This document shows positions 5,389 to 26,843 of a stretch of DNA of 59,611 nucleotides, piece after piece (position 1 is the stretch's first letter; every line of letters begins with the position of its first letter). The notes beneath the pieces are model-generated. The model was not told where the DNA came from and made no database searches. It worked only from the letters and a program-made list of their open reading frames with translations. This DNA is from Pseudomonadota bacterium (GTDB taxonomy: Bacteria; Pseudomonadota; Alphaproteobacteria; Caulobacterales; Caulobacteraceae): positions 1-59,611 of the forward strand of contig JAKBBV010000014.1 of assembly GCA_021808285.1 (NCBI GenBank), written 5' to 3'. Position numbers and translations under genes: made by a program.

Positions 5389-6840
5389 TCAGGGGCATCC
5401 TGTCCGTAGCACGTCGACCTTTGGCTGGCTGACCAGGAACGCGCGATAGATCAGCGGCGCGGTATGAGGCGCCCCGCGCGCAAGATCGCCAAGGTCCTGA
5501 ACCTTGCCGAAACAGGCCTGCAGGGACCCAGCTGAAAGCCGGCGGGTCAGATCGACGACGACTCCGGGCTGGGCGAGATCAGCGTGACTGGGGGCCAGGG
5601 TCTCCCAGCGGCGTCGTTCGCGAATCTGAATGACGGGCGCCAGGACCGTGCTTTGATCGGCGAGCTGCGCGGCGAGGCCATAGCTCGCGGCGCCAATCCA
5701 GCGGCCGTGAACCTTCTGGAGGAGCCCTTCCAGACGCCGCGCGAAGCCTGGGTAGTCCCGGATCGACTTCGCCGGGTCCACTCGTAGAGGCACGCCAAGA
5801 TAGGGCGCGGCATAAACGCCGGCGGAAAGGCAAAGGGCCAGCCCTGTCAGGGGGGCGACCAGGCGCGCCAGACGGTCGCGCGTCGGCGCGACCGAGGCCG
5901 CCGCCACCGCTAACGCGGGATAAAGCGGCGCCGGCCAATGCGCCTCGACCTGATCGTGCAGGCCATGAATGATGAGATAGACGGCAAATGGCGCGGAGGT
6001 AATGATCGGCAGGCCAAGTTGGGGAGCAAGACCCCTTCTCATCCTTTCGACGGCTCTCAGGGCGAAAACAGCGACAATCGGATTGAGTAGCACGACCTGG
6101 CCTCCGAGAAGACCGATCAGGTAACCGGGGGCGAAGCGGTGCGGCGTCAGGCGACCGAACTGACGGGCGAAAGTCACCCAGTGGTGGGTCGCGTTCCAGG
6201 CCAGGTTCAAAGTGAAGAGCCCGGCGGCGGTCATGAGAGCTAGCCACGGCCACAGTCCCGCAAGGCTTTTGCGCCGCTCCTGCGAGGTCAATACCCAGAG
6301 CAAAGCCCCTGGCGCGAGGAACAGGGCGGAATATTTGGCCAGGCAGCCCAACCCCGCCGCCGCGCCGGCGGCTAACCACCAGAACGGCTGACGTCGCGTC
6401 CGCGCCAGTGCGCACAGACATCCGGTCCAGGCGGTCTCAGCCCCGACGTCAGGAACAGCCAGTTCACCACCAGCGGCTGAGAGTAAAGTCAGATTGAACC
6501 AAAGCGCCGCGCGGAGGGAGGCCGCCTCGTCGAAGTCAAGCTGTCGGGCGAGGTCATAGACCAGCAGCGTGGTCAGGCTGCTGAGCAAGCAAGGCCCCAG
6601 GCGAATCCCGAGACGATCATCGCCCGCAAGACTTTCTCCGGCGGCGATCAGCCAGGCGACGATCGGCGGGTGGTCGTAATAGCCCAGCGCAGGCGCCTGA
6701 GCCCACAGCCGGTAATAGGCCTCGTCCTCCGTCAGGGGCAGAACGACGGCCAGGACAAGGTGGAGGGCGAGAAAGCCCGCGATGATCGTCGCGAGGCGGG
6801 CCGCGGCGCGTTCACCAGACAGCGAGCGAGGTGCTGACAT
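5389..6840 (-). CDS. GT39-family membrane glycosyltransferase (ArnT/PMT-like)
   Basis: 483-residue polytopic protein of the ArnT/PMT superfamily, which transfers sugars from polyprenyl-phosphate donors to lipid or protein acceptors on the periplasmic side. The first loop has the acidic catalytic pair (PLTEDEAYYRLWA, Glu38/Asp39) followed by GYYDHPPIVAWLIA, both hallmarks of the family. About ten hydrophobic segments follow. It starts at 6840 inside the preceding GT2-GtrA gene (29-nt overlap), so the two are translationally linked; that enzyme probably makes the polyprenyl-phosphate-sugar donor. The acceptor is unknown. Confidence 0.85.
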   Translation of the reverse strand: MSAPRSLSGERAAARLATIIAGFLALHLVLAVVLPLTEDEAYYRLWAQAPALGYYDHPPIVAWLIAAGESLAGDDRLGIRLGPCLLSSLTTLLVYDLARQLDFDEAASLRAALWFNLTLLSAAGGELAVPDVGAETAWTGCLCALARTRRQPFWWLAAGAAAGLGCLAKYSALFLAPGALLWVLTSQERRKSLAGLWPWLALMTAAGLFTLNLAWNATHHWVTFARQFGRLTPHRFAPGYLIGLLGGQVVLLNPIVAVFALRAVERMRRGLAPQLGLPIITSAPFAVYLIIHGLHDQVEAHWPAPLYPALAVAAASVAPTRDRLARLVAPLTGLALCLSAGVYAAPYLGVPLRVDPAKSIRDYPGFARRLEGLLQKVHGRWIGAASYGLAAQLADQSTVLAPVIQIRERRRWETLAPSHADLAQPGVVVDLTRRLSAGSLQACFGKVQDLGDLARGAPHTAPLIYRAFLVSQPKVDVLRTGCP

Positions 6841-7963
6841 AGTTCCAAGCGGCGCCGAACAGGGCTCCCGACAGGCCCGCCAGCCACCATAGCGGCGTCC
6901 AGCTATGCACGAGATCGCCGATCGCGAGATTTGCCGCCAGCCCGAGACTGCAGAGAGCACAGAAGCGGAGGTAACCGCTCAAAAGGCGCCAGCCTCGCAG
7001 GCGACGATCGCGATAGGTGATGAGGTTATTGAAGATGAAATTGCTCGTCATCGCGACCAGAGCAGCGCCACCCTGCGCCATCTCGAACCTCAGGCCGGCT
7101 GTCCTTTCAGCATAGAGCACCGCCAAATGGACCAGCACTCCGCTCAGGCCGACCAGGCCGAACAGCAGAAATCTCGGCGGAAGTAGCCCGCGGGTCATCT
7201 TGGAGAGGATGAGGCCGAAATAGTCGAGCACGACCCGGCCGTCGAGCTTGCTGATCCCTGCCTGCCGCTCCGAGAAGGCGTATGGAATTTCGAGGATGCG
7301 CGGAGGCTCTGGTTGAGAGGCGATGACGTCGAACAGGATCTTGAAGCCCTGGTCCGACAGCCGGGGCGTCACCTGTTCCACCAACTCGCGGCGAATCATG
7401 AAGAAGCCGCTGACAGGATCGGTCACATCTGCGCGCAATACGCTCCGGGCGAGCGAGGTCGCGAGCCGACTTCCCGCCAGGCGGATTGGCGATAGACCCC
7501 GCGTGGCCCCGTCGGCGGTGAGATAGCGGCTCCCGATCACCAGATCAGCCCGCCCGCCTCGAAGCGCTCCGAGCATTTGGGGCAGGATCGACTCGTCATG
7601 CTGCAAGTCAGCGTCGATCACCGCGACGTAGGGCGCCGAACTGGCCAGCACGCCTTCAAGAACGGCGCCTGCCAAACCACGACGACCGATGCGGCGCAGA
7701 CATTGAATGCGGGGATCAGTTCTGGCGATCGCCTTCACAGCCGCGGCGGTGCCATCCGGGGAGTTGTCGTCAACGAAGACGGCCTGCCAGGCGACCCCGT
7801 CCAGGGCGCGATCCAGACGCGCCAGCAAAGGCGCCACATTGGCTCGCTCGTTGAAGGTGGGTATGACGACACTGAGCTCCAAACTCTCGGATGCGCCGGC
7901 GCCCCAGGTCAGGGGCGCGTTCTCCGAGTGGGGCGCCGTTTCTGTGGTCAAGCGCGCTGACAT
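6812..7963 (-). CDS. GT2 polyprenyl-phosphate glycosyltransferase fused to GtrA-type domain
   Basis: 383-residue fusion. The N-terminal half is a DPM1/GtrB-type GT2 domain with LSVVIPTFNE, VDDNSPDGT and the metal-binding VIDADLQHDES motif. The C-terminal 120 residues are a four-helix GtrA-like membrane domain (FLLFGLVGLSGVLVHL and three further helices). Such enzymes load a sugar onto undecaprenyl phosphate, and the GtrA part may flip it. The start at 7963 is the first family-consistent ATG. Its start codon overlaps the divergent tusA start, so one of the two starts may be wrong. Confidence 0.83.
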   Translation of the reverse strand: MSARLTTETAPHSENAPLTWGAGASESLELSVVIPTFNERANVAPLLARLDRALDGVAWQAVFVDDNSPDGTAAAVKAIARTDPRIQCLRRIGRRGLAGAVLEGVLASSAPYVAVIDADLQHDESILPQMLGALRGGRADLVIGSRYLTADGATRGLSPIRLAGSRLATSLARSVLRADVTDPVSGFFMIRRELVEQVTPRLSDQGFKILFDVIASQPEPPRILEIPYAFSERQAGISKLDGRVVLDYFGLILSKMTRGLLPPRFLLFGLVGLSGVLVHLAVLYAERTAGLRFEMAQGGAALVAMTSNFIFNNLITYRDRRLRGWRLLSGYLRFCALCSLGLAANLAIGDLVHSWTPLWWLAGLSGALFGAAWNYVSTSLAVW

Positions 7964-17214: not shown

Positions 17215-18677
17215 CTTCGGTTCCCCAGGCGCTCCACGACACGCGAGGTCGAGTGGCCGGGCGCCAAATCCGCTAGCCTGACCTCTCCACCCCAGCCTTC
17301 CACGAGATCCGCACCCACGATCGTCTCGCGGCTGTAGTCAGCGCCTTTGACCAAGAGGTCTGGCCGAATTGCTCGGATCAGCTCGATGGGCGTATCGTCG
17401 GAGAATTCGACAACGAGATCGACCGCCTCAAGGGCGGCCAAGACCTCCGCTCGGGCGCGGGCCGGATTGATCGGGCGGGTGGGTCCCTTGGCCCGCCGTA
17501 CGGAATCGTCTGAGTTGAGCCCAACGATCAGACGATCGCACCAGGACCTCGCTTGGGTCAGGCAGGCGACGTGTCCAGGATGAAGCAGATCGAAGCAACC
17601 GTTCGTGAAGCCAACCCGCAGACTCTGCTGTCGCCAGCCTGCGGCCGCCTCCGCCGCCGCCTCGTATGAGGCGATCTTTGGCGCTCGGACCTTGCCGGAC
17701 ACCTCCAAGGCCGCCGTCACAAGCTCGCTGGCTGTTACGGCGGCGACGCCCGCCTTTTGCACGACCTTCCATGACGCGAGGAGCGCGAGGCGCGAGGCGA
17801 TGTCTGCAGGCGCTCCAGACGCCATAGCCATCCCCAAGGCCGCGAGCGCGGTGTCGCCCGCCCCTGCCGTGTCGAAAACCTCCGGCGGCGGCAAGGCGAG
17901 GTGCAGGACGGCGCCATCCCTCTGGGCGAGGGAAAGGCCCTTCGCGGCGCGGGTCACCAGCAGGCGTTCTGCAGCGCAGGTCGCCAGCGCCGCCTGCGCG
18001 GCCGCGACGACTTCCTCATCCGACTCCGTGGGAAGATTCGTCGCCCTGCTCAGCTCCTGCGAGTTGGGCTTGAGCACGGCGACCCGCCCATAGGGTGCGA
18101 ACTTCTGCGCCTTGGAGTCGACGATGATCGGCGCTCCTGTCCGCTCAGAGAGGGCCTGACAGGCCGCGATCACCTTTGCGGTGATCGCCCCCTTGCCGTA
18201 GTCCGAGAGTAGAATCGCTCGGGCTTCGGCTCCGAGCTGTTCTATGGTCTGGAGCAAAGCCGCCTCCACCACCGGGGAGGCTTCGATCGCCTGCTCCGTG
18301 TCGACGCGCAGAAGCTGCTGGCCGGCGGCCGAAAAGCGCACCTTCAGGGTGGTTGGACGGGAATTGTCGACCACGAGACCGCAGGCGATCCCTGCCGCCT
18401 CCGCGAGCTTAGCGCACTCGGAGCCTCCTGCATCACTGCCCACGAGGCCCGCAAGGATCGGTCTCCCGCCCATGGCGCCGATATTGCGCGCGACATTGCC
18501 GGCGCCGCCGAGCATCGCCGTCTCATGACCGCGGGCCAGAACAGGGATCGGCGCTTCCGCGGAGACGCGAGATACCTCGCCGTGGACAAAGCGGTCGAGC
18601 ATGACGTCCCCAACGACCAGAATCGCCCTCCCGGCGCCCCGGCTCAACAGGGTGTCGATAAGATCGGCGCTGATCAT
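17211..18677 (-). CDS. hldE: Bifunctional heptose-7-phosphate kinase / adenylyltransferase HldE
   Basis: 488-residue two-domain enzyme. The N-terminal PfkB/ribokinase domain phosphorylates D-glycero-D-manno-heptose 7-phosphate at C1 ([15 protein letters not shown]; catalytic loop [17 protein letters not shown]). The C-terminal nucleotidyltransferase domain ([19 protein letters not shown], with HxGH) adds AMP. The product is ADP-D,D-heptose for LPS inner core. It overlaps the upstream kdsA by 4 nt, and its stop overlaps the start of the hldD remnant. Confidence 0.96.
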
Positions 18678-19540
18678 TGTGCGCCCACGCCATGTTTCGC
18701 CAAGGCGTCAAAGGCGAGAAGCTCAACCAGAAGGGGCTCCAGTTCAGCCAGCGGAATCATGTTGGGCCCATCGGAGGGAGCATGGTCCGGGTCCGGATGG
18801 GTTTCCAGAAAGATGGCGGCCACACCCACCGCCACCGCCGCCCGCGCCAGAACAGGGACGAAGCGCCGCTCGCCCCCCGAACGATCCCCCTTGCCCCCGG
18901 GCTGCTGCACCGAGTGGGTGGCGTCAAACACCACCGGACAGCCGATCTCCTTCAGGATTGGCAAGGCTCGCATATCCGACACCAACGTGTTGTAGCCGAA
19001 CGATACGCCACGCTCGCAGGCCATGACCCTTGGATTGCCCGCCTCAACGGCCTTGGCCACGACGTGCTTCATGTCCCATGGCGCCAGGAACTGCCCCTTC
19101 TTGATATTGATCACCGCCCCGGTCTGGGCGGCGGCGACGATGAGATCGGTCTGACGGCTGAGAAAGGCCGGAATCTGGAGAACGTCCACCGCCTGGGCCA
19201 CCAGGGCGCACTGGGAAGCTTCGTGAACGTCGGTCAGGGTGGGAAGGCCCGTGCGGTCTCTGACCTCGGCGAAGATATCGAGCGCCGCGGAGAGGCCCAA
19301 ACCCCGCGGCGTACGGGATGACGACCGATTCGCTTTGTCGAAGGACGTTTTGTAAATCAGGTCGATGCCCAGGCGCGCGGCCATGGCCGCCAGAGCCTCG
19401 GCGGTTTCCAGAGCATGGGCCCGGCTCTCCATCTGGCAGGGCCCTGCGATGAGGCTGAGGCGGCGTTGGTTGCCCAAATGCAGCGGCTCCCCGCGCGGAC
19501 GCGGGATCTCGATCACCGACTGGGGACAGGCAATAGACAT
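18674..19540 (-). CDS. kdsA: 3-deoxy-8-phosphooctulonate synthase KdsA
   Basis: 288-residue KDO-8-phosphate synthase condensing phosphoenolpyruvate with arabinose 5-phosphate, the first committed step to KDO for LPS. Characteristic stretches are [55 protein letters not shown] and [12 protein letters not shown]. The ATG at 19540 has AAGAGG upstream and fits the family length; the open frame continues to 19801. Divergent from phrB, with start codons 94 bp apart. First gene of the kdsA-hldE-(hldD) operon. Confidence 0.95.
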
Positions 19541-19549
19541 CACACCTCT

Positions 19550-19579
19550 TGATCCGGCGCATGCCGACTCGCGTAGGAA
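19550..19579 (+). promoter_or_regulatory. Candidate RpoE/ChrR-type ECF sigma promoter for phrB-cfa
   Basis: TGATCC at 19550-19555 is separated by exactly 18 bp from TAGGAA at 19574-19579. The ECF sigma factor RpoE, controlled by ChrR in the singlet-oxygen response of Rhodobacter and relatives, recognises TGATCC-N18-TAAGA-like sites, and photolyase and cyclopropane synthase genes are known members of that regulon. The site lies about 55 bp before the phrB start and points towards it. One -10 base differs from the consensus. Confidence 0.65.
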
Positions 19580-19634
19580 TGGCCGACGATGGCCAGGCGA
19601 CGCAAGCTCGGCGGCGCGGTGAGGAGTCCAAAGG

Positions 19635-21062
19635 GTGTCAGCGGCGCCAACGATCTTTTGGTTCAGGGCCGATTTGCGCCTGACTGACAATCCCGCCCTG
19701 ACTGCCGCGCTGGAGCAGGGTTCCGTTCTTCCCGTCTTCATATGGGATGAGACGCCGCCAATTCGACCTCTGGGAGGAGCGGCGCGATGGTGGCTGGACA
19801 AATCCCTTCGCGCCCTGGCCGCGGACCTCGCCGTGCGGGGCGCGCCATTGATCCTGCGTCGCGGGCCGGCCCTTGGCGTGCTGGAAGACCTGATCGCCGA
19901 GACCGGAGCGCAGGAGGTGTTCTGGAACCGCCTTTATGATCCCGCCTCCATCGCGCGAGATTCCGAATTGAAGGCGCGCCTGACGCAAGCGGGCGTTCGT
20001 TGTCGCTCCTATAACGCCTCCTTACTGATCGAACCCTGGGAGGTCGCCACCCAGACTGGCGGTCCATTCCGAGTGTTTTCCGCTTTCTGGCGCGCGGCTG
20101 AACCCCGGGTGGCCTGCTCTGACGGCCTGGCTGCGCCCGCCGCGCTTCGTCCGCCGGAGAAAACGCCGGCAAGCGATCCGATCGATGCCTGGAGCCTTCA
20201 CCCGGAACATCCCGACTGGTCGGGCGGGTTTGGCGAATGGACCCCGGGCGAGTCGGGCGCGGCAAAGCGTCTACAGACATTTCTCGACGAGGCGCTTTTT
20301 GAATATTCCGGCGGACGGGACCGTCCCGACAGGGCTTGGACCTCCAAGCTGTCGCCGCACCTGCATTTCGGAGAGATCGGACCGCGGCAAGTCTGGCGGG
20401 CCGTGCAAGCGCGAGCCCTGACCGGCGCTTCGCTGAAGTCATCGGCGACTTTTCTGAAGGAGCTCGGCTGGCGCGAGTTCAATCACCACCTCCTGTTTCA
20501 TTATCCCAGGACCCCGAGCGATAACCTCGATGCGCGGTTCGACGCCTTTCCTTGGCGGGAGTCGTCAACGGACCTGAAGCTCTGGCAACGGGGAAAGACG
20601 GGATATCCGATCATTGATGCCGGCATGCGGGAGCTTTGGCGCACGGGCTGGATGCACAACCGGGTGCGTATGATCGTCGCGTCGTTTCTCATCAAAGACC
20701 TGTTGATTGACTGGCGCCTGGGCGAGGCCTGGTTCTGGGATACCTTGGTGGATGCAGACATCGCGAATAATGTCGCGGGCTGGCAATGGACGGCAGGATC
20801 TGGAGCCGATGCGGCGCCCTATTTTCGCGTGTTCAATCCCGTTCTCCAGGGCGAGCGCTTCGATCCGGAGGGGGACTATGTGCGGCGCTGGGTCCCAGAA
20901 CTTTCGCGCCTCCCGGCGAGCGCTATCCATGCCCCCTGGCGATCCGACTCCTTGGTTCTTTCAGACGCGGGCGTTCGGCTTGGTGTCACCTACCCCTATC
21001 CGCTCGTCGATCACGCCCAGGCCCGCGACCGTGCTCTGAAACTCTACAAGGAGCTGCCATGA
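19635..21062 (+). CDS. phrB: Deoxyribodipyrimidine photolyase
   Basis: 475-residue class I CPD photolyase that uses light to split cyclobutane pyrimidine dimers. The N-terminal alpha/beta antenna domain starts [17 protein letters not shown]. The FAD-binding domain has [39 protein letters not shown] and [20 protein letters not shown], including the Asp-Ala pattern around the substrate site. The start is GTG at 19635, with GAGGAG at 19621-19626. Its stop overlaps the cfa start (ATGA). A putative ECF promoter lies upstream. Confidence 0.95.
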
Positions 21063-22294
21063 CCCTCGCGCCTCCCATCGTCACAATGCCGCCGGATGTG
21101 GTCGAAGATCTCAGACGCGCGCCGGCGGCTTTTCGCACGGCGGTCTCCATCGCGTCGCGAACCTGGCGCGGCGGGGCGTTGGAGTTTGAGCTTCCGTCCG
21201 GCGGGGTGATCGCCATCCAAGGCCCTGAACCCGGCCCGAGCGGCCGCTTGATCGTCCGCGATTTTCGCTTTGTCGCCCGAGTCCTGACGGGCGCCGATAT
21301 CGGCTTTGGGGAGGGATATATGGCCGGCGAATGGGACTCGCCCGATCTCTCTGCGCTGATGGAGGCGTTCACGCTCAATTTCGATCATCTCGAAGCTCTG
21401 GTGAACGGCCAGCCATGGGTCCGGGCGCTGAACTTCCTGTCGCACCTGGCGCGGCCTAACACCAAGCTTGGCTCTCGCCGAAACATTCATGCGCACTACG
21501 ACCTGGGCAACGACTTTTACGCCCGTTGGCTCGATCCCAGCATGACCTATTCTTCAGCGCGCTTTGAAAGCCCATCTGAGACCCTGACTGAGGGGCAGCG
21601 AAACAAATATGCGGCATTGGCTCGCCAGATAGACCTTCACTCCGATCATCACGTTCTCGAGATTGGCTGCGGCTGGGGGGGCTTTGCAGAGTTTGCGGCG
21701 CACGACATCGGAGCCCGGGTCACGGCGCTCACCATATCCCGCGCGCAACACGAATTCGCCAGTCGCCGTGTGTTTGAAAGAGGACTGGCCGAACGCGTAG
21801 CGGTGCGCCTCATCGACTATCGCGACGTGACAGGGCAGTTTGACCGCGTGGCCTCGATCGAGATGTTCGAGGCTGTCGGCGAAGCCTATTGGCCGCGATA
21901 TTTCGCCAAGATCCGCGAGGTTTTGAGTCCAGGAGGGCGGGCCGGCATACAGGTCATCACCATCCGGGACGAACTCTTCAAGGTCTATCGTCGTCGTTCT
22001 GATTTCATGAGGAAATATATATTCCCCGGCGGCATGTTGCCGTCTGAGACGCGTCTGAAGGAGGAAACCGTTCGGGCGGGTCTCGAATGGCGCAGCATCT
22101 CGCGGTTCGGGCAGAACTACGCCCGCACGCTGTCAGAGTGGGGACAGCGGTTTGAGTCGGCGTGGGAGGAGATCCGGGCGCTTGGATTTGACGACCGGTT
22201 TCGTCGGCTCTGGCGTTTCTATCTTTGTTATTGTGAGGCGGCATTTCGGACCGGTCGGACAGATGTTGCACAGGTGACCCTGGCCAAGATCTGA
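21059..22294 (+). CDS. cfa: Cyclopropane-fatty-acyl-phospholipid synthase family protein
   Basis: 411-residue S-adenosylmethionine-dependent methyltransferase that adds methylene groups to unsaturated membrane acyl chains. The SAM-binding motif VLEIGCGWGGFAEFA is at 199-213, preceded by the HAHYDLGNDFYARWLDPSMTY block and followed by the YRDVTGQFDRVASIEMFEAVG region. The N-terminal 130 residues are the usual lipid-binding extension. Its ATG overlaps the phrB stop. Cyclopropanation protects membranes from oxidative and acid damage, which fits the neighbouring photolyase. Confidence 0.93.
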   Translation: MTLAPPIVTMPPDVVEDLRRAPAAFRTAVSIASRTWRGGALEFELPSGGVIAIQGPEPGPSGRLIVRDFRFVARVLTGADIGFGEGYMAGEWDSPDLSALMEAFTLNFDHLEALVNGQPWVRALNFLSHLARPNTKLGSRRNIHAHYDLGNDFYARWLDPSMTYSSARFESPSETLTEGQRNKYAALARQIDLHSDHHVLEIGCGWGGFAEFAAHDIGARVTALTISRAQHEFASRRVFERGLAERVAVRLIDYRDVTGQFDRVASIEMFEAVGEAYWPRYFAKIREVLSPGGRAGIQVITIRDELFKVYRRRSDFMRKYIFPGGMLPSETRLKEETVRAGLEWRSISRFGQNYARTLSEWGQRFESAWEEIRALGFDDRFRRLWRFYLCYCEAAFRTGRTDVAQVTLAKI

Positions 22295-22337: not shown

Positions 22338-23348
22338 ATGTCAGCTCCCCCCGCCTGCGCGAGCGTGATCGCGGCGATTGGGTCTACCCCCCTGATCCGG
22401 CTTAAGCGCGCGAGCGAAATGACGGGGTGCGACATCTTCGGCAAGGCGGAGTTTCTCAATCCTGGGCAGTCGGTCAAAGACCGCGCCGCATTGTCTCTGA
22501 TACGCGATGCTGAGCGCCGCGGGCTGTTGAACCCGGGGGGCCGGATCGTGGAGGGGACGGCCGGCAATACCGGCATCGGTCTGGCGCTCGTCGCCTCAGC
22601 GCTAGGATACAAGGCGACAATCGTCGTTCCCCGCACTCAAAGCGAGGAGAAGAAGGACGCCCTCCGCCTCGCGGGCGCCGAGCTTGTGGAGGTTGACCCC
22701 GCGCCCTATTCCAATCCCGGCAATTATGTCCGCTACTCCAGTCGTCTGGCGGAGGAGCTGTCGGCCAGCGAGCCTCGGGGTGTGTTCTGGGCCAATCAGT
22801 TCGACAATCGCGCCAATCGGCAGGCTCATATCGACGGCACCGCGCCTGAGATCTGGGATCAGATGGACGGTCGCATCGATGGCTTCATCTGCGCAGTCGG
22901 AACCGGTGGGACGCTCTCCGGCGTCGCCGAGGGACTCCGATCGCGAGATGAGAGAGTTCAAATTGGCCTCGCCGATCCCGAAGGATCGGCGCTCTATTCC
23001 TATTACAAGACGGGCGAACTGAGGGCCGAGGGGTCGTCGATTTCTGAAGGCATCGGTCAAGGACGGATCACCGGCAATCTTGTGGGTCTCAAAGTCGATT
23101 TCGCTTGCCAGGTCACCGACACCGAAATGCTTGAGGTGATCTACGACCTTGCCCAAAACGAGGGTCTCGTCATGGGCGGCTCGACCGGGGTCAATGTCGC
23201 CGGAGCGATCCGGCTAGCGCGAAGCCTTGGGCCTGGCAGCCGTATCGTCACCGTGCTCTGCGATTATGGCGCAAGATACCAAAGCAAGCTGTTCAACCCT
23301 GCCTTTCTTGCGGCGAAAGGGCTTCCCTCCCCACCATGGCTCAAGTGA
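22338..23348 (+). CDS. cysK: Cysteine synthase (O-acetylserine sulfhydrylase)
   Basis: 336-residue PLP enzyme making cysteine from O-acetylserine and sulfide. PLP lysine Lys47 is in NPGQSVKDRAA, the substrate loop is EGTAGNTGIGLAL and the phosphate-binding loop AVGTGGTLSG. The later part (ISEGIGQGRITGNL, VMGGSTGVNVAGA) is typical of the alphaproteobacterial long form. A GGAG ribosome binding site precedes the ATG. It overlaps the downstream sulfurtransferase by 13 nt. The gap after cfa is 43 bp with no strong terminator. Confidence 0.9.
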   Translation: MSAPPACASVIAAIGSTPLIRLKRASEMTGCDIFGKAEFLNPGQSVKDRAALSLIRDAERRGLLNPGGRIVEGTAGNTGIGLALVASALGYKATIVVPRTQSEEKKDALRLAGAELVEVDPAPYSNPGNYVRYSSRLAEELSASEPRGVFWANQFDNRANRQAHIDGTAPEIWDQMDGRIDGFICAVGTGGTLSGVAEGLRSRDERVQIGLADPEGSALYSYYKTGELRAEGSSISEGIGQGRITGNLVGLKVDFACQVTDTEMLEVIYDLAQNEGLVMGGSTGVNVAGAIRLARSLGPGSRIVTVLCDYGARYQSKLFNPAFLAAKGLPSPPWLK

Positions 23349-24196
23349 CCTCAGACCCGCTGGTGTCGCCCGATTGGCTCCGGGCCCACCTCGTTGACCC
23401 CAACTTGGCGATTCTCGACGCGTCGTGGTTTCTCCCAGGCGGCGAGCTTGATCCCGAGGACGAATTCACAAAGGGACACATCCCAGGCGCCCTACGCTTC
23501 CGCATCGACGAAATTTGCGACCGCACCAGCCCGCTGCCGCATATGCTGCCGTCATCGGCGGCCTTCGCTGAGGCGGTCAGCGCCATGGGGATCGGCGCCG
23601 ACACGACAGTTGTCATCTATGACTCCCTGGGTCTGTTTTCGTCCCCCAGGGTCTGGTGGACCTTTCGTGTTATGGGCTGCAACAACGTCCATGTCTTGGA
23701 CGGAGGACTGCCTGGCTGGGTCTCCCGCGGCTTTCCCCTCGCGACCGGGGCGGCGCGCCCACGACCGCCCAAACGCTTCCCCCCCCGATTCAACGAAGCT
23801 TTGGTCAGGGACCTCGAACAGGTCCGCGACGCGCTCGCCACCGGCGCGGCGCAGATTGTCGATGCCCGTCCGCGCGCACGTTTCACGGGAGCGGCGAGCG
23901 AACCCAGGCCCGGCGTTCGCGCGGGACATATGCCTGGCGCGCTCAATCTGCCCTATGCCGACGTCATTGAAGGGGAGCGGCTCGCCGGCGCGGATAGGCT
24001 TAGAAGCGTTTTCGAGAGCTCGGGTGTCGCTCTGGACCGACCGATCATCACCACCTGTGGCTCTGGAGTGAGCGCTGCGGTGCTGGCCCTGGCGCTGGCG
24101 TCGATCGGGCGCAGGGATGTCGCGGTTTATGACGGGTCCTGGAGCGAGTGGGGCGCCAGAGCGGATACGCCGGTCGTCCAGGGGACCAGCCCATGA
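23336..24196 (+). CDS. sseA: 3-mercaptopyruvate sulfurtransferase (two rhodanese domains)
   Basis: 286-residue tandem rhodanese protein. The N-terminal domain is inactive and the C-terminal domain carries the catalytic Cys241 in TTCGSGVSAAV, the CGSGVxA loop typical of 3-mercaptopyruvate sulfurtransferase rather than thiosulfate rhodanese. It transfers sulfur from 3-mercaptopyruvate to thiols or cyanide. It sits between cysK and metC with overlapping ends, so the three are co-transcribed and probably form a cysteine and sulfur-handling set. Confidence 0.92.
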   Translation: MAQVTSDPLVSPDWLRAHLVDPNLAILDASWFLPGGELDPEDEFTKGHIPGALRFRIDEICDRTSPLPHMLPSSAAFAEAVSAMGIGADTTVVIYDSLGLFSSPRVWWTFRVMGCNNVHVLDGGLPGWVSRGFPLATGAARPRPPKRFPPRFNEALVRDLEQVRDALATGAAQIVDARPRARFTGAASEPRPGVRAGHMPGALNLPYADVIEGERLAGADRLRSVFESSGVALDRPIITTCGSGVSAAVLALALASIGRRDVAVYDGSWSEWGARADTPVVQGTSP

Positions 24197-25350
24197 GACG
24201 TCCCTCGGCGGAGACTCGTCTCATCCATGCCCGGCCCCGGATGACGACCACAGCGCAGACCGTGGGCCCGAGTATTCAGAGGGGCTCGACGGTGCTGATC
24301 TCGGGCGCCGCCGACGTCTATGACGACGCTGCGCCGACTTATGGTCGCATGGGCCTGGCGACGCATCAGGCGCTCTGCGCCGCTCTCTGTGAGTTGGAGG
24401 GCGCCACAAACACCGCGCTTTTTCCGTCCGGACTGGCGGCTATGACGACCGCAATGACGTCCGTGCTTCAGTCGGGTGACGACATCCTCGTCACGGATGC
24501 GATCTATAAGCCGACCCGGCGCTTTTGCCAGAATGTGCTCCATCGATTTGGGGTCTCCGTCAGGTTCCATCCTGCAGACCTCAGCGCCGAGGGCATCTTG
24601 GCCCTCGTGAGGCCTGAGACCCGTTTGATCGTCATGGAGTCTCCCGGCTCCTTGACCCTCGACATGCAGGACGTCCCTGGCGTGGCGCGGTTAGCGAGCC
24701 AGCGGGGTATCCTCACCCTGGTTGACAACACCTGGGCGGCGGGCGCGCTGTTTCGGCCGCTCGACCATGGCGTCGATATCTCCGTCCAGTCACTGACCAA
24801 ATACGCCTGCGGTCATTCCGATATCCTGATGGGCTCCGCCACAACGCGGCGCGCCGATGTCGCCGCCCAGCTTGACCATTCGGTTCGGGACTTTGGCTGG
24901 TCGGTTTCAGCAGACGACGCCTACGGCATCCTTCGGGGACTACGGACCCTGCATACCCGGCTGCGTCAGCAGGGGGAGAGCGCGCTTCGCGTCGCCAACT
25001 GGCTTGAACGCCACGCCAAGATCGCGCGAGTGCTCTACCCGGCCCTGCCCTCCTCCCATGGCTATGAGATCTGGCGTCGCGATTATTCCGGGGCCGCGGG
25101 GCTACTGGCCTTTGAATTCGGGCCACGCACTGATGCTGAGATCAATAGATTCCTCGACCATCTGCGGATTTTCGGCTTGGGTTTTTCCTGGGGCGGGTTT
25201 GAGAGCCTCGCCCTTCCTTGCGATCCGCAGCTTGCCGTGCGGACGTTCCCGGAAAAAGGCCGTGGGCCTCTGATCCGACTGAGCATCGGCTTGGAGACAA
25301 CCGACGACCTCATCGCCGATCTTGAGGCCGCGCTGGCGGTCCTGCCCTGA
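24193..25350 (+). CDS. metC: Cystathionine beta-lyase
   Basis: 385-residue Cys/Met metabolism PLP enzyme. PLP lysine Lys203 lies in SVQSLTKYACGHSD, and the VDNTWAAGALFRPLDHGVDI stretch is characteristic of cystathionine beta-lyase, which cleaves cystathionine to homocysteine, pyruvate and ammonia. Cystathionine gamma-lyase activity cannot be excluded. The start at 24193 overlaps the sseA stop (ATGA); a longer frame begins at 24148. It ends the plus-strand run phrB-cfa-cysK-sseA-metC. Confidence 0.9.
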   Translation: MRRPSAETRLIHARPRMTTTAQTVGPSIQRGSTVLISGAADVYDDAAPTYGRMGLATHQALCAALCELEGATNTALFPSGLAAMTTAMTSVLQSGDDILVTDAIYKPTRRFCQNVLHRFGVSVRFHPADLSAEGILALVRPETRLIVMESPGSLTLDMQDVPGVARLASQRGILTLVDNTWAAGALFRPLDHGVDISVQSLTKYACGHSDILMGSATTRRADVAAQLDHSVRDFGWSVSADDAYGILRGLRTLHTRLRQQGESALRVANWLERHAKIARVLYPALPSSHGYEIWRRDYSGAAGLLAFEFGPRTDAEINRFLDHLRIFGLGFSWGGFESLALPCDPQLAVRTFPEKGRGPLIRLSIGLETTDDLIADLEAALAVLP

Positions 25351-25403: not shown

Positions 25404-26843
25404 TTAAGGTGACGCATCCAGAACCGTATCCTCCAGCAGTAGGCTCAGATTCCTTTCATGAGCGCCTTTGTCGATACGGTAGAGTGTGAGTGAGGCAAGA
25501 GAGCATAGCGAAATGAAGAAGGTGAAGGGCAGATAAAGCGTCGCGAGGCGATGCATGATGGCTGGATCGACAGTCCCACGGACCGCGTGTGCGGGGAAAT
25601 GCACGAGGGTCAGGAGCAGACCCGTGATCACGGCGCCCACGCCGGCGGTAGCCTTTGGAAGGAGACCGTAGGCGGCATAGAGCAACCCCTCGGAACGCAC
25701 GCCGCTCCGCACGGCGGCATCGTCAACGATGTCGGCGACCATTGAGGCGGCGATAATATAGCCCGCCACGCCCAATCCAGAGGTCACAAAGCCGTCGCCG
25801 GCGAGGAGGGGCAAAATCCAAGGACTGCCGTTAGGCGGCAAAATCCCTACGAGGCGCAAAAAGACCGGTCCGGCCTGGGTTAGCACCGCCAAGGTGAAGA
25901 GGGTCAACATGGCCGGCTTTTTGCCGAACGTTTTGACCAGAAGCGGGGCCGCAAAGACGGCTGCAATGGAACCCAGAGCGTGCAGCGGCGCCAGCCAGCC
26001 ATATTGCCGCGGCGCCAACTCCCAGAAGTGATTGTACATATAGACGCTGAGACCCAGGGTGATGGACTGCGAGATGCCGCTCAGGAACCCGGCCGTCATC
26101 AAGGCGGCAAGCGAGCGGTTCGCCAGCGTCCGGCGGAGCTCCACGACGGTCTCCCGCAAGGAGGGTTTGAGTCTCGCTTGGGGCCTCGGCAGATAGGGAA
26201 CTCTCCGCAGTGTCGTGAGGGCCGAGACACCGGCAAAAATGACACACCCTCCGGCCATAAGGGCGGCCCAATGACCGTAGCCTGGGCGATAGAGCACGCC
26301 GTTCCGGCGAAGGAAGACGAGGTTGAGGAGCATTGAGCCGCCGGCGCCGCCGATGACGCCGAAGAACCATCTGTAAGATTGCAGTCGCGTACGCCCGCCA
26401 TAGTCTGAGGTCAGCTCTGCGGTGAGGGCGTTGCTGGGAATCTCATATAGACTGGCCGACAGCCGAACTACGGTAAGGGCCGCCAAGGTGAACCCGAACA
26501 GGGCCGGGCCGCGAAGCTCCCCTGGCGGATTGAACAAGATGAAGAAGCCCAGGGCAGCCGGCAATATCGCCATAAAGATGTAGGGATGTCTCCGGCCCAT
26601 GCGGCTGCGGGTTCTGTCGGAGCTCATGCCGATGATCGGGTCGGCCAGGGCGTCTATGACGAGCGAGGCCATGATCGCCTGACCAACCAACAGCGGCGGC
26701 GCCCCGAGGACCTGGTTGAAGTAGATCTGGATCAATCCGGCGGAAAGTCCGGTCTGGGCCACTCCATTCAGGAACGCCCCAGAGCCAAATCCCAGACGTG
26801 TTCCTACGCCAAGAGGCGGCGGTCCTTCGGAGCGTCCTCCCAT
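25404..26843 (-). CDS. GPH-type (MelB-like) major facilitator transporter
   Basis: 479-residue polytopic protein with about twelve membrane helices. The segment DALADPIIGMSSDRTRSR followed by MGRRHPYIF is the signature of the glycoside-pentoside-hexuronide:cation symporter family. The conserved membrane Asp residues for cation coupling are retained in helix 2. The substrate is unknown. GAGGGAG precedes the ATG, and the leader contains a small GGAGC/GCTCC hairpin. It is convergent with metC and co-directional with, but separate from, the thiolase gene. Confidence 0.85.
   Translation of the reverse strand: MGGRSEGPPPLGVGTRLGFGSGAFLNGVAQTGLSAGLIQIYFNQVLGAPPLLVGQAIMASLVIDALADPIIGMSSDRTRSRMGRRHPYIFMAILPAALGFFILFNPPGELRGPALFGFTLAALTVVRLSASLYEIPSNALTAELTSDYGGRTRLQSYRWFFGVIGGAGGSMLLNLVFLRRNGVLYRPGYGHWAALMAGGCVIFAGVSALTTLRRVPYLPRPQARLKPSLRETVVELRRTLANRSLAALMTAGFLSGISQSITLGLSVYMYNHFWELAPRQYGWLAPLHALGSIAAVFAAPLLVKTFGKKPAMLTLFTLAVLTQAGPVFLRLVGILPPNGSPWILPLLAGDGFVTSGLGVAGYIIAASMVADIVDDAAVRSGVRSEGLLYAAYGLLPKATAGVGAVITGLLLTLVHFPAHAVRGTVDPAIMHRLATLYLPFTFFISLCSLASLTLYRIDKGAHERNLSLLLEDTVLDASP

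Follow-up and report, generated by a model that had tools for sequence, protein, structure and literature searches.

The stretch of DNA analysed here (the window) covers 59,611 nucleotides from a member of the Caulobacteraceae and carries on its forward strand a gene for a DNA photolyase (phr) and a gene for a methyltransferase of the Cfa/CMAS family, with a kdsA-like gene running in the opposite direction (Table 1). The end of phr and the start of the methyltransferase gene (stop codon and ATG) overlap by four bases, which makes it very likely that both belong to one operon. Further downstream on the same strand (22338-25350) are genes for a PALP (cysteine synthase-like) protein, a rhodanese and a PLP enzyme of Cys/Met metabolism, and a PALP gene also stands 3' of the methyltransferase gene in several Caulobacteraceae relatives. 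They are followed on the strand opposite to phr by a transporter gene (PF13347, MFS_2; 25404-26843); in the published lists of the Rhodobacter regulon, RSP_1089 is entered as a GPH-family symporter.

Table 1. Features of the phr locus (positions are those of the window)
Feature	Position	Strand	Evidence
kdsA-like gene, divergent, boundary of the promoter region	18674..19540	-	PF00793; start codon at 19540
-35 box TGATCC, putative ECF11-type promoter	19550..19555	+	Sequence; present before phr in 33 of 78 relatives when position 6 may be C or T
-10 box CGTA, followed by GGAA, 16 bases past TGATCC	19572..19575	+	Sequence
GAGGAG, likely ribosome binding site, 8 bases 5' of GTG	19621..19626	+	Sequence; inference
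phr, DNA photolyase, 475 aa	19635..21062	+	PF00875, PF03441; best PDB match 4u63, 526.8 bits
ufaM-like gene, SAM-dependent fatty acyl methyltransferase, 411 aa	21059..22294	+	PF02353; synteny with ufaD-ufaO; Ser-Glu-Gln-Tyr

Between the two divergent genes the forward strand reads TGATCC-GGCGCATGCCGACTCGCG-TAGGAA at 19550-19579, and the GTG start codon of phr lies 55 nucleotides past the end of this element, exactly as in the original prediction of a TGATCC-N18-TAGGA motif about 55 bp before the photolyase gene. Counted from TGATCC to the TA at 19574-19575 the spacer is 18 bases, and the full form is TGATCC-N16-CGTA (19550-19575) with GGAA directly after it, which is the consensus published for the ChrR-partnered sigma factor of Pseudomonas syringae (PMC5507510). 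The downstream box of the form originally proposed is better written CGTA, following that consensus. As a prediction, the assignment of the site to the ECF11 type is well supported.

Simple counting does not distinguish the site from chance. The window holds four matches to the loose pattern TGATCC-N16..20-TA, where 3.2 are expected, and 55 matches to TGATCC-N16-CGTA with up to two mismatches, where 43.6 are expected; one of the 55 is exact. Across the genome (2.9 Mb) there are 155 matches with at most one mismatch, five of them exact, and the 150 one-mismatch matches suggest that about five exact ones would arise by chance; exact sites therefore appear no commoner than chance, and a lone occurrence would not be significant by count. 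Two of the exact sites fall within reading frames, C9:21206 in one of 161 aa and C71:47920 in one of 475 aa, and for this reason were dropped as promoters and taken as likely chance matches. Pattern counts were accordingly set aside and conservation was used as the evidence.

Relatives of phr were collected at 80 loci; L060 and L063 were dropped for want of upstream sequence, which left 78. TGATCC-N16-CGTA is found within 250 bp upstream of phr in 31 of the 78, and in 33 when either C or T is accepted at position 6. By comparison, 200 dinucleotide-preserving shuffles of the same upstream regions gave a mean of 0.01 sites and a maximum of 1, the reverse strand gave one site, and spacers one base shorter or longer gave two and none, respectively. 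Both boxes are kept across the relatives while most spacer letters vary, and the base preceding CGTA is G in 24 of the 33 sites (CGTA itself being fixed by the search pattern). Of the 45 remaining upstream regions, 10 have a weaker site by a weight matrix built from the 33, with a score above the 99% level for letter-shuffled sequence; six of the ten read TAATCC-N16-CGTA, and some of the ten are near-copies of one another. At L052 (Caulobacter sp. CCUG 60055), which shares the phr-ufaM arrangement of the window, the match upstream of phr is no more than weak. It could be argued that the site is a chance match or a part of the kdsA leader, with phr transcribed from another promoter, given that the match count alone is within chance in both window and genome and that the kdsA start codon is just 10 bases away from the beginning of TGATCC. 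The conservation of both boxes and of their spacing before phr leaves this explanation hardly any credit, particularly as the site is also present at phr loci where no divergent kdsA adjoins (e.g. L040, L046 and L073), so that it is not a kdsA feature. The site is clearly conserved beyond chance.

The same genome encodes a regulator of the matching kind. On contig C41 a gene for an ECF sigma factor (L117:6029-6706) overlaps by four bases a chrR gene (6703-7377), whose product scored 140.4 bits against TIGR02451 in a profile search of the genome (cut-off 124.5); a second ChrR match, on contig C63, is weak at 31.5 bits and below the cut-off. The sigma protein has sigma regions 2 and 4, and its best PDB match is Rhodobacter RpoE (entries 2z2s/2q1z, 5e-41, the next match being at 2e-18); ChrR has two PDB matches, both of them to ChrR (2z2s and 2q1z). 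The zinc ligands of Rhodobacter ChrR are given as His6, His31, Cys35 and Cys38, and His141, His143, Glu147 and His177 (PMC6852236), and in an alignment to 2z2s_B all eight are identical in the protein encoded here, four in the anti-sigma domain and four in the cupin domain. Next to the pair, divergent from it, lie two genes, one for a protein resembling flavin amine oxidases and one for a DUF1365 protein, and two back-to-back TGATCC-N16-CGTA sites separate the two gene sets, one at C41:20994-21019 (+) before the sigma gene and one at C41:20944-20969 (-) before the divergent pair. The ECF11 sigma/ChrR pair that the original prediction had expected in the genome is therefore there, as are further sites of like form, and together they support the ChrR-type singlet-oxygen response that it suggested, in so far as genes and sites can.

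Eleven Sigma70_r4_2 matches in the genome leave room for a different ECF sigma factor to use the site in place of the ChrR-partnered one. To set against this, the site and ChrR co-occur across genomes, and among 13 loci comprising the two ChrR matches and the eleven sigma matches, with about 1.5 kb on either side (L001-L013), sites of the TGATCC-N16-CGTA form are found only at the locus of the ChrR pair. We regard use by another sigma factor as quite improbable. A heat-shock sigma target comparable to rpoHII in Rhodobacter was not found among these 13 loci, in which only L001 and L007, both belonging to the ChrR pair, have the site.

ChrR was found in 60 of the 78 genomes, in 48 above the cut-off and in 12 with weaker matches at E 1e-15 or better, a boundary that was the analyst's choice. 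The strict site precedes phr in 31 of these 60 and in 2 of the 18 others (Fisher p 0.002, with genomes counted as independent). The two exceptions are L058 in genome G022, where the site is present and a ChrR match is absent, which speaks for another sigma factor, and L040 in genome G004, with a weak match that just misses the boundary at 1.1e-15. Counting against ChrR control, the strict site is missing before phr in 27 of the 48 genomes whose ChrR is above the cut-off; for 13 of the 27, the photolyase gene found stands apart from the ufa genes discussed below. Linkage to ufa genes itself tracks the site, which is present at 28 of 49 linked and 5 of 29 unlinked phr loci (p 0.0008). A group of relatives (L152 and L154-L159), several of them with the site before phr, have at most a divergent ChrR that matches the one encoded here at 32-37%, and the strict site was not found near the sigma pair in these; they perhaps represent a variant anti-sigma group.

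The label of the second gene is a part of the original prediction that needs correcting. A photolyase does follow the promoter, and the "CFA synthase" behind it is most likely UfaM, the methyltransferase of the first step of furan fatty acid synthesis, judging by its synteny and by a Gln at the position of His266. In Rhodobacter the gene numbered next to phrA (RSP_2143) is RSP_2144 (PMC5507510, PMC7074977), which is called a CFA synthase (CfaS) in the same two papers and has been shown to be UfaM (PMC7380195). Some ufa homologue stands near phr at 51 of the 80 loci. The order phr-ufaD-ufaO-ufaM, all in one direction, accounts for 28 of these 51, and ufaM alone with phr, as in the window, for 19; of the other four, two are cut by contig ends, L070 has phr last and L105 has ufaD by a sigma gene. 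The names ufaD and ufaO for the genes divergent from sigma-chrR follow from the presence of homologues next to phr and ufaM in relatives, and from published counterparts of RSP_1091 and a DUF1365 protein that occupy these places. The DUF1365 gene beside sigma-chrR is the only match to that family in the genome. The ufaM-like gene is in this way linked to ufaD and ufaO, with like sites before phr-ufaM and before ufaD-ufaO.

The active site points the same way. In E. coli Cfa the catalytic bicarbonate is held by the side chains of Glu239, His266 and Tyr317 (PMC11387697), and in the protein from the window the Glu and Tyr are kept and His266 is replaced by Gln. Gln occupies this position in all 45 relatives with long matches (46 of 46 with the window's own); at the position of Cys139, 36 of the 46 have Ser and the remaining 10 Ala. 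For a control set, CMAS matches were taken from 41 genomes belonging to the order, selected on family score regardless of phr, and 29 loci among the matches listed, besides the window's own, were examined. Eight of the 29 encode proteins of the Cys-Glu-His-Tyr type, and at none of these eight is phr, ufaD or ufaO present in the roughly 1.5 kb around, whereas 17 of the 21 Ser/Ala-Glu-Gln-Tyr proteins have such a neighbour (p 0.0001 for these 29 loci). Two Paracoccaceae plasmid proteins are also Ser-Glu-Gln-Tyr, one of them beside genes for an FAD oxidoreductase and a DUF1365 protein. The aligned set does not include the proven UfaM enzymes RSP_2144 and RPA2569, so the Gln signature rests on synteny. 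In a search for a UfaM bicarbonate-site residue in print, covering mostly non-subscription papers, only PMC7600597 among the matches listed names both UfaM and bicarbonate; going by its title it concerns epoxidised algal esters and, judged unrelated, was rejected as a precedent.

The promoter might be real and the second gene nevertheless an ordinary cyclopropane fatty acid synthase: its product is a member of the Cfa/CMAS family and, among PDB entries, matches Cfa enzymes best, and the literature lists its Rhodobacter counterpart as CfaS. The demonstration that this counterpart is UfaM, the gene order of the 28 ufa-linked relatives, the uniform replacement of His266 in the aligned proteins and the split in neighbours between His-type and Gln-type proteins all tell against it, and we consider it improbable. 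The genome does carry a second CMAS gene, which follows chrR (L117:7492-8550 on C41), is above the cut-off and keeps His266, with Phe for Ile268; homologues 59-80% identical to it stand beside rpoE-chrR in several relatives.

The ufaD and ufaO genes appear to have a history of their own. In the lineage of the window phr and ufaM are together and ufaD-ufaO lie beside rpoE-chrR; in other Caulobacteraceae all four are in one operon. Eight rpoE-chrR loci were available from relatives with phr-ufaM alone, and ufaD adjoins the sigma gene in seven of them, divergently in six and in the same direction in L149, the eighth (L147) being cut by a contig end. With the pattern TGAT[CT][CT]-N16-CGTA, both sites are found at five of these eight loci, one at one locus and none at two (L147 and L149); twelve other rpoE-chrR loci have one site in four cases and none in eight. 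The loci without a site weigh against the proposed regulation. In a tree of 36 UfaD proteins, which leaves out L145 (partial) and L147 (none found), the seven rpoE-linked copies cluster together (100/99), separately from the copies found in operons in the same family. In the tree of the 46 UfaM proteins, those from the Caulobacteraceae do not sort by layout, and L050, for instance, groups with the operon-type L051, L056 and L060; both trees were rooted at the midpoint and their roots are unproven. As the rpoE-linked UfaD copies form a clade apart and UfaM does not follow the split, the ufaD-ufaO pair of the split lineages would have its own ancestry, either through replacement as a module or through old duplicates that were lost differentially. 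The wider proposal, that the change of His266 to Gln (with Cys139 to Ser/Ala) both marks and helps to cause the turn to methyl-alkene chemistry and that ufaD-ufaO moved as a module, is a tentative one, to which we give slightly less than an even chance. What was less to be expected is the Gln signature, together with the separate descent of the ufaD copies linked to rpoE.

Related genes also occur on plasmids. Plasmid pPZ02 of Paracoccus zhejiangensis (L194, 923-8785) carries genes for a sigma factor, an anti-sigma factor, a fasciclin-domain protein, an FAD oxidoreductase, a DUF1365 protein, a CMAS, an MFS transporter, an SDR and a tryptophan-rich sensory protein, a set that is a mobilisable form of the module; a strict site was not found on L194. 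A Klebsiella pneumoniae plasmid (H39, NZ_CP129856.1) has at 514162-515379 a CMAS gene 40% identical to that of the window, adjoining DUF1365 and DUF2878 genes, an arrangement that resembles a set of furan fatty acid genes carried by a mobile element.

Taken as a whole, it is highly probable that the site is the promoter of phr-ufaM, read by the organism's own ECF11-type sigma factor under the control of ChrR; we infer the sigma factor that reads the site, the inducing signal and the product of the enzyme. Under this explanation the zinc-binding ChrR anti-sigma factor would hold the sigma factor inactive until singlet oxygen or organic peroxides led to the loss of ChrR, whereupon the freed sigma factor would join RNA polymerase and fire three promoters, those of sigma-chrR, the divergent ufaD-ufaO and phr-ufaM. 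The photolyase would mend light-damaged DNA, and UfaM would methylate cis-vaccenoyl chains, to give 11-methyl-12-trans-18:1, which UfaD and UfaO would then convert to furan fatty acid. The furan lipids may, as in Rhodobacter, be needed for full activation of the sigma factor. A scavenging role for furan lipids is reportedly named in the title of a 2014 paper by Lemke. Each of these steps goes beyond the facts of the sequence and is extrapolated from the known systems in relatives. In Rhodobacter furan fatty acid is described as required for full activation of the sigma factor (PMC6852236). In favour of the explanation, the published core regulon contains rpoE-chrR, photolyase, cfaS and RSP_1091 counterparts (PMC6852236, PMC5507510).

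These results indicate a Rhodobacter-type singlet-oxygen response in a lineage of the Caulobacteraceae known here from a draft genome only, and suggest that "cyclopropane synthase" genes beside photolyase genes are probably often ufaM. If the one-residue signature is true, UfaM and Cfa, which are confused in annotation, could be separated by a single residue, the capacity for furan fatty acids could be charted across genomes, and the step separating the two chemistries would become testable.

The closest known system is the sigmaE-ChrR (ECF11) regulon of Rhodobacter sphaeroides, comprising rpoE-chrR, phrA (RSP_2143), cfaS/ufaM (RSP_2144) and ufaD-ufaO (RSP_1091-1090); the operon has further downstream genes (RSP_1089-1087), and the comparison was made without these. 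Both organisms have a sigma-ChrR pair with the same zinc ligands, a photolyase gene with a ufaM-type gene, and ufaD-ufaO beside rpoE-chrR (PMC7074977). Unlike R. sphaeroides, the genome described here belongs to a Caulobacteraceae lineage and has a second CMAS gene following chrR. The sigmaE-ChrR system of Caulobacter crescentus is of the same bacterial family and the same kind of regulator, which is the level at which it was compared, gene layout aside; it is reported to be activated by singlet oxygen and organic hydroperoxides (PMC6852236), and a Caulobacter vibrioides control gave a ChrR match above the cut-off. In P. syringae the PSPTO_1043-1042 regulon has the same TGATCC-N16-CGTA consensus and a phrB operon with counterparts of cfaS, RSP_1090 and RSP_1091 (PMC5507510), but there they form one phrB operon, whereas here they occupy two loci, each with its own site. 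The original prediction holds in the main. The regulon is of a known kind, here in a new organism; one of its enzymes takes another name, and a single residue may mark it.
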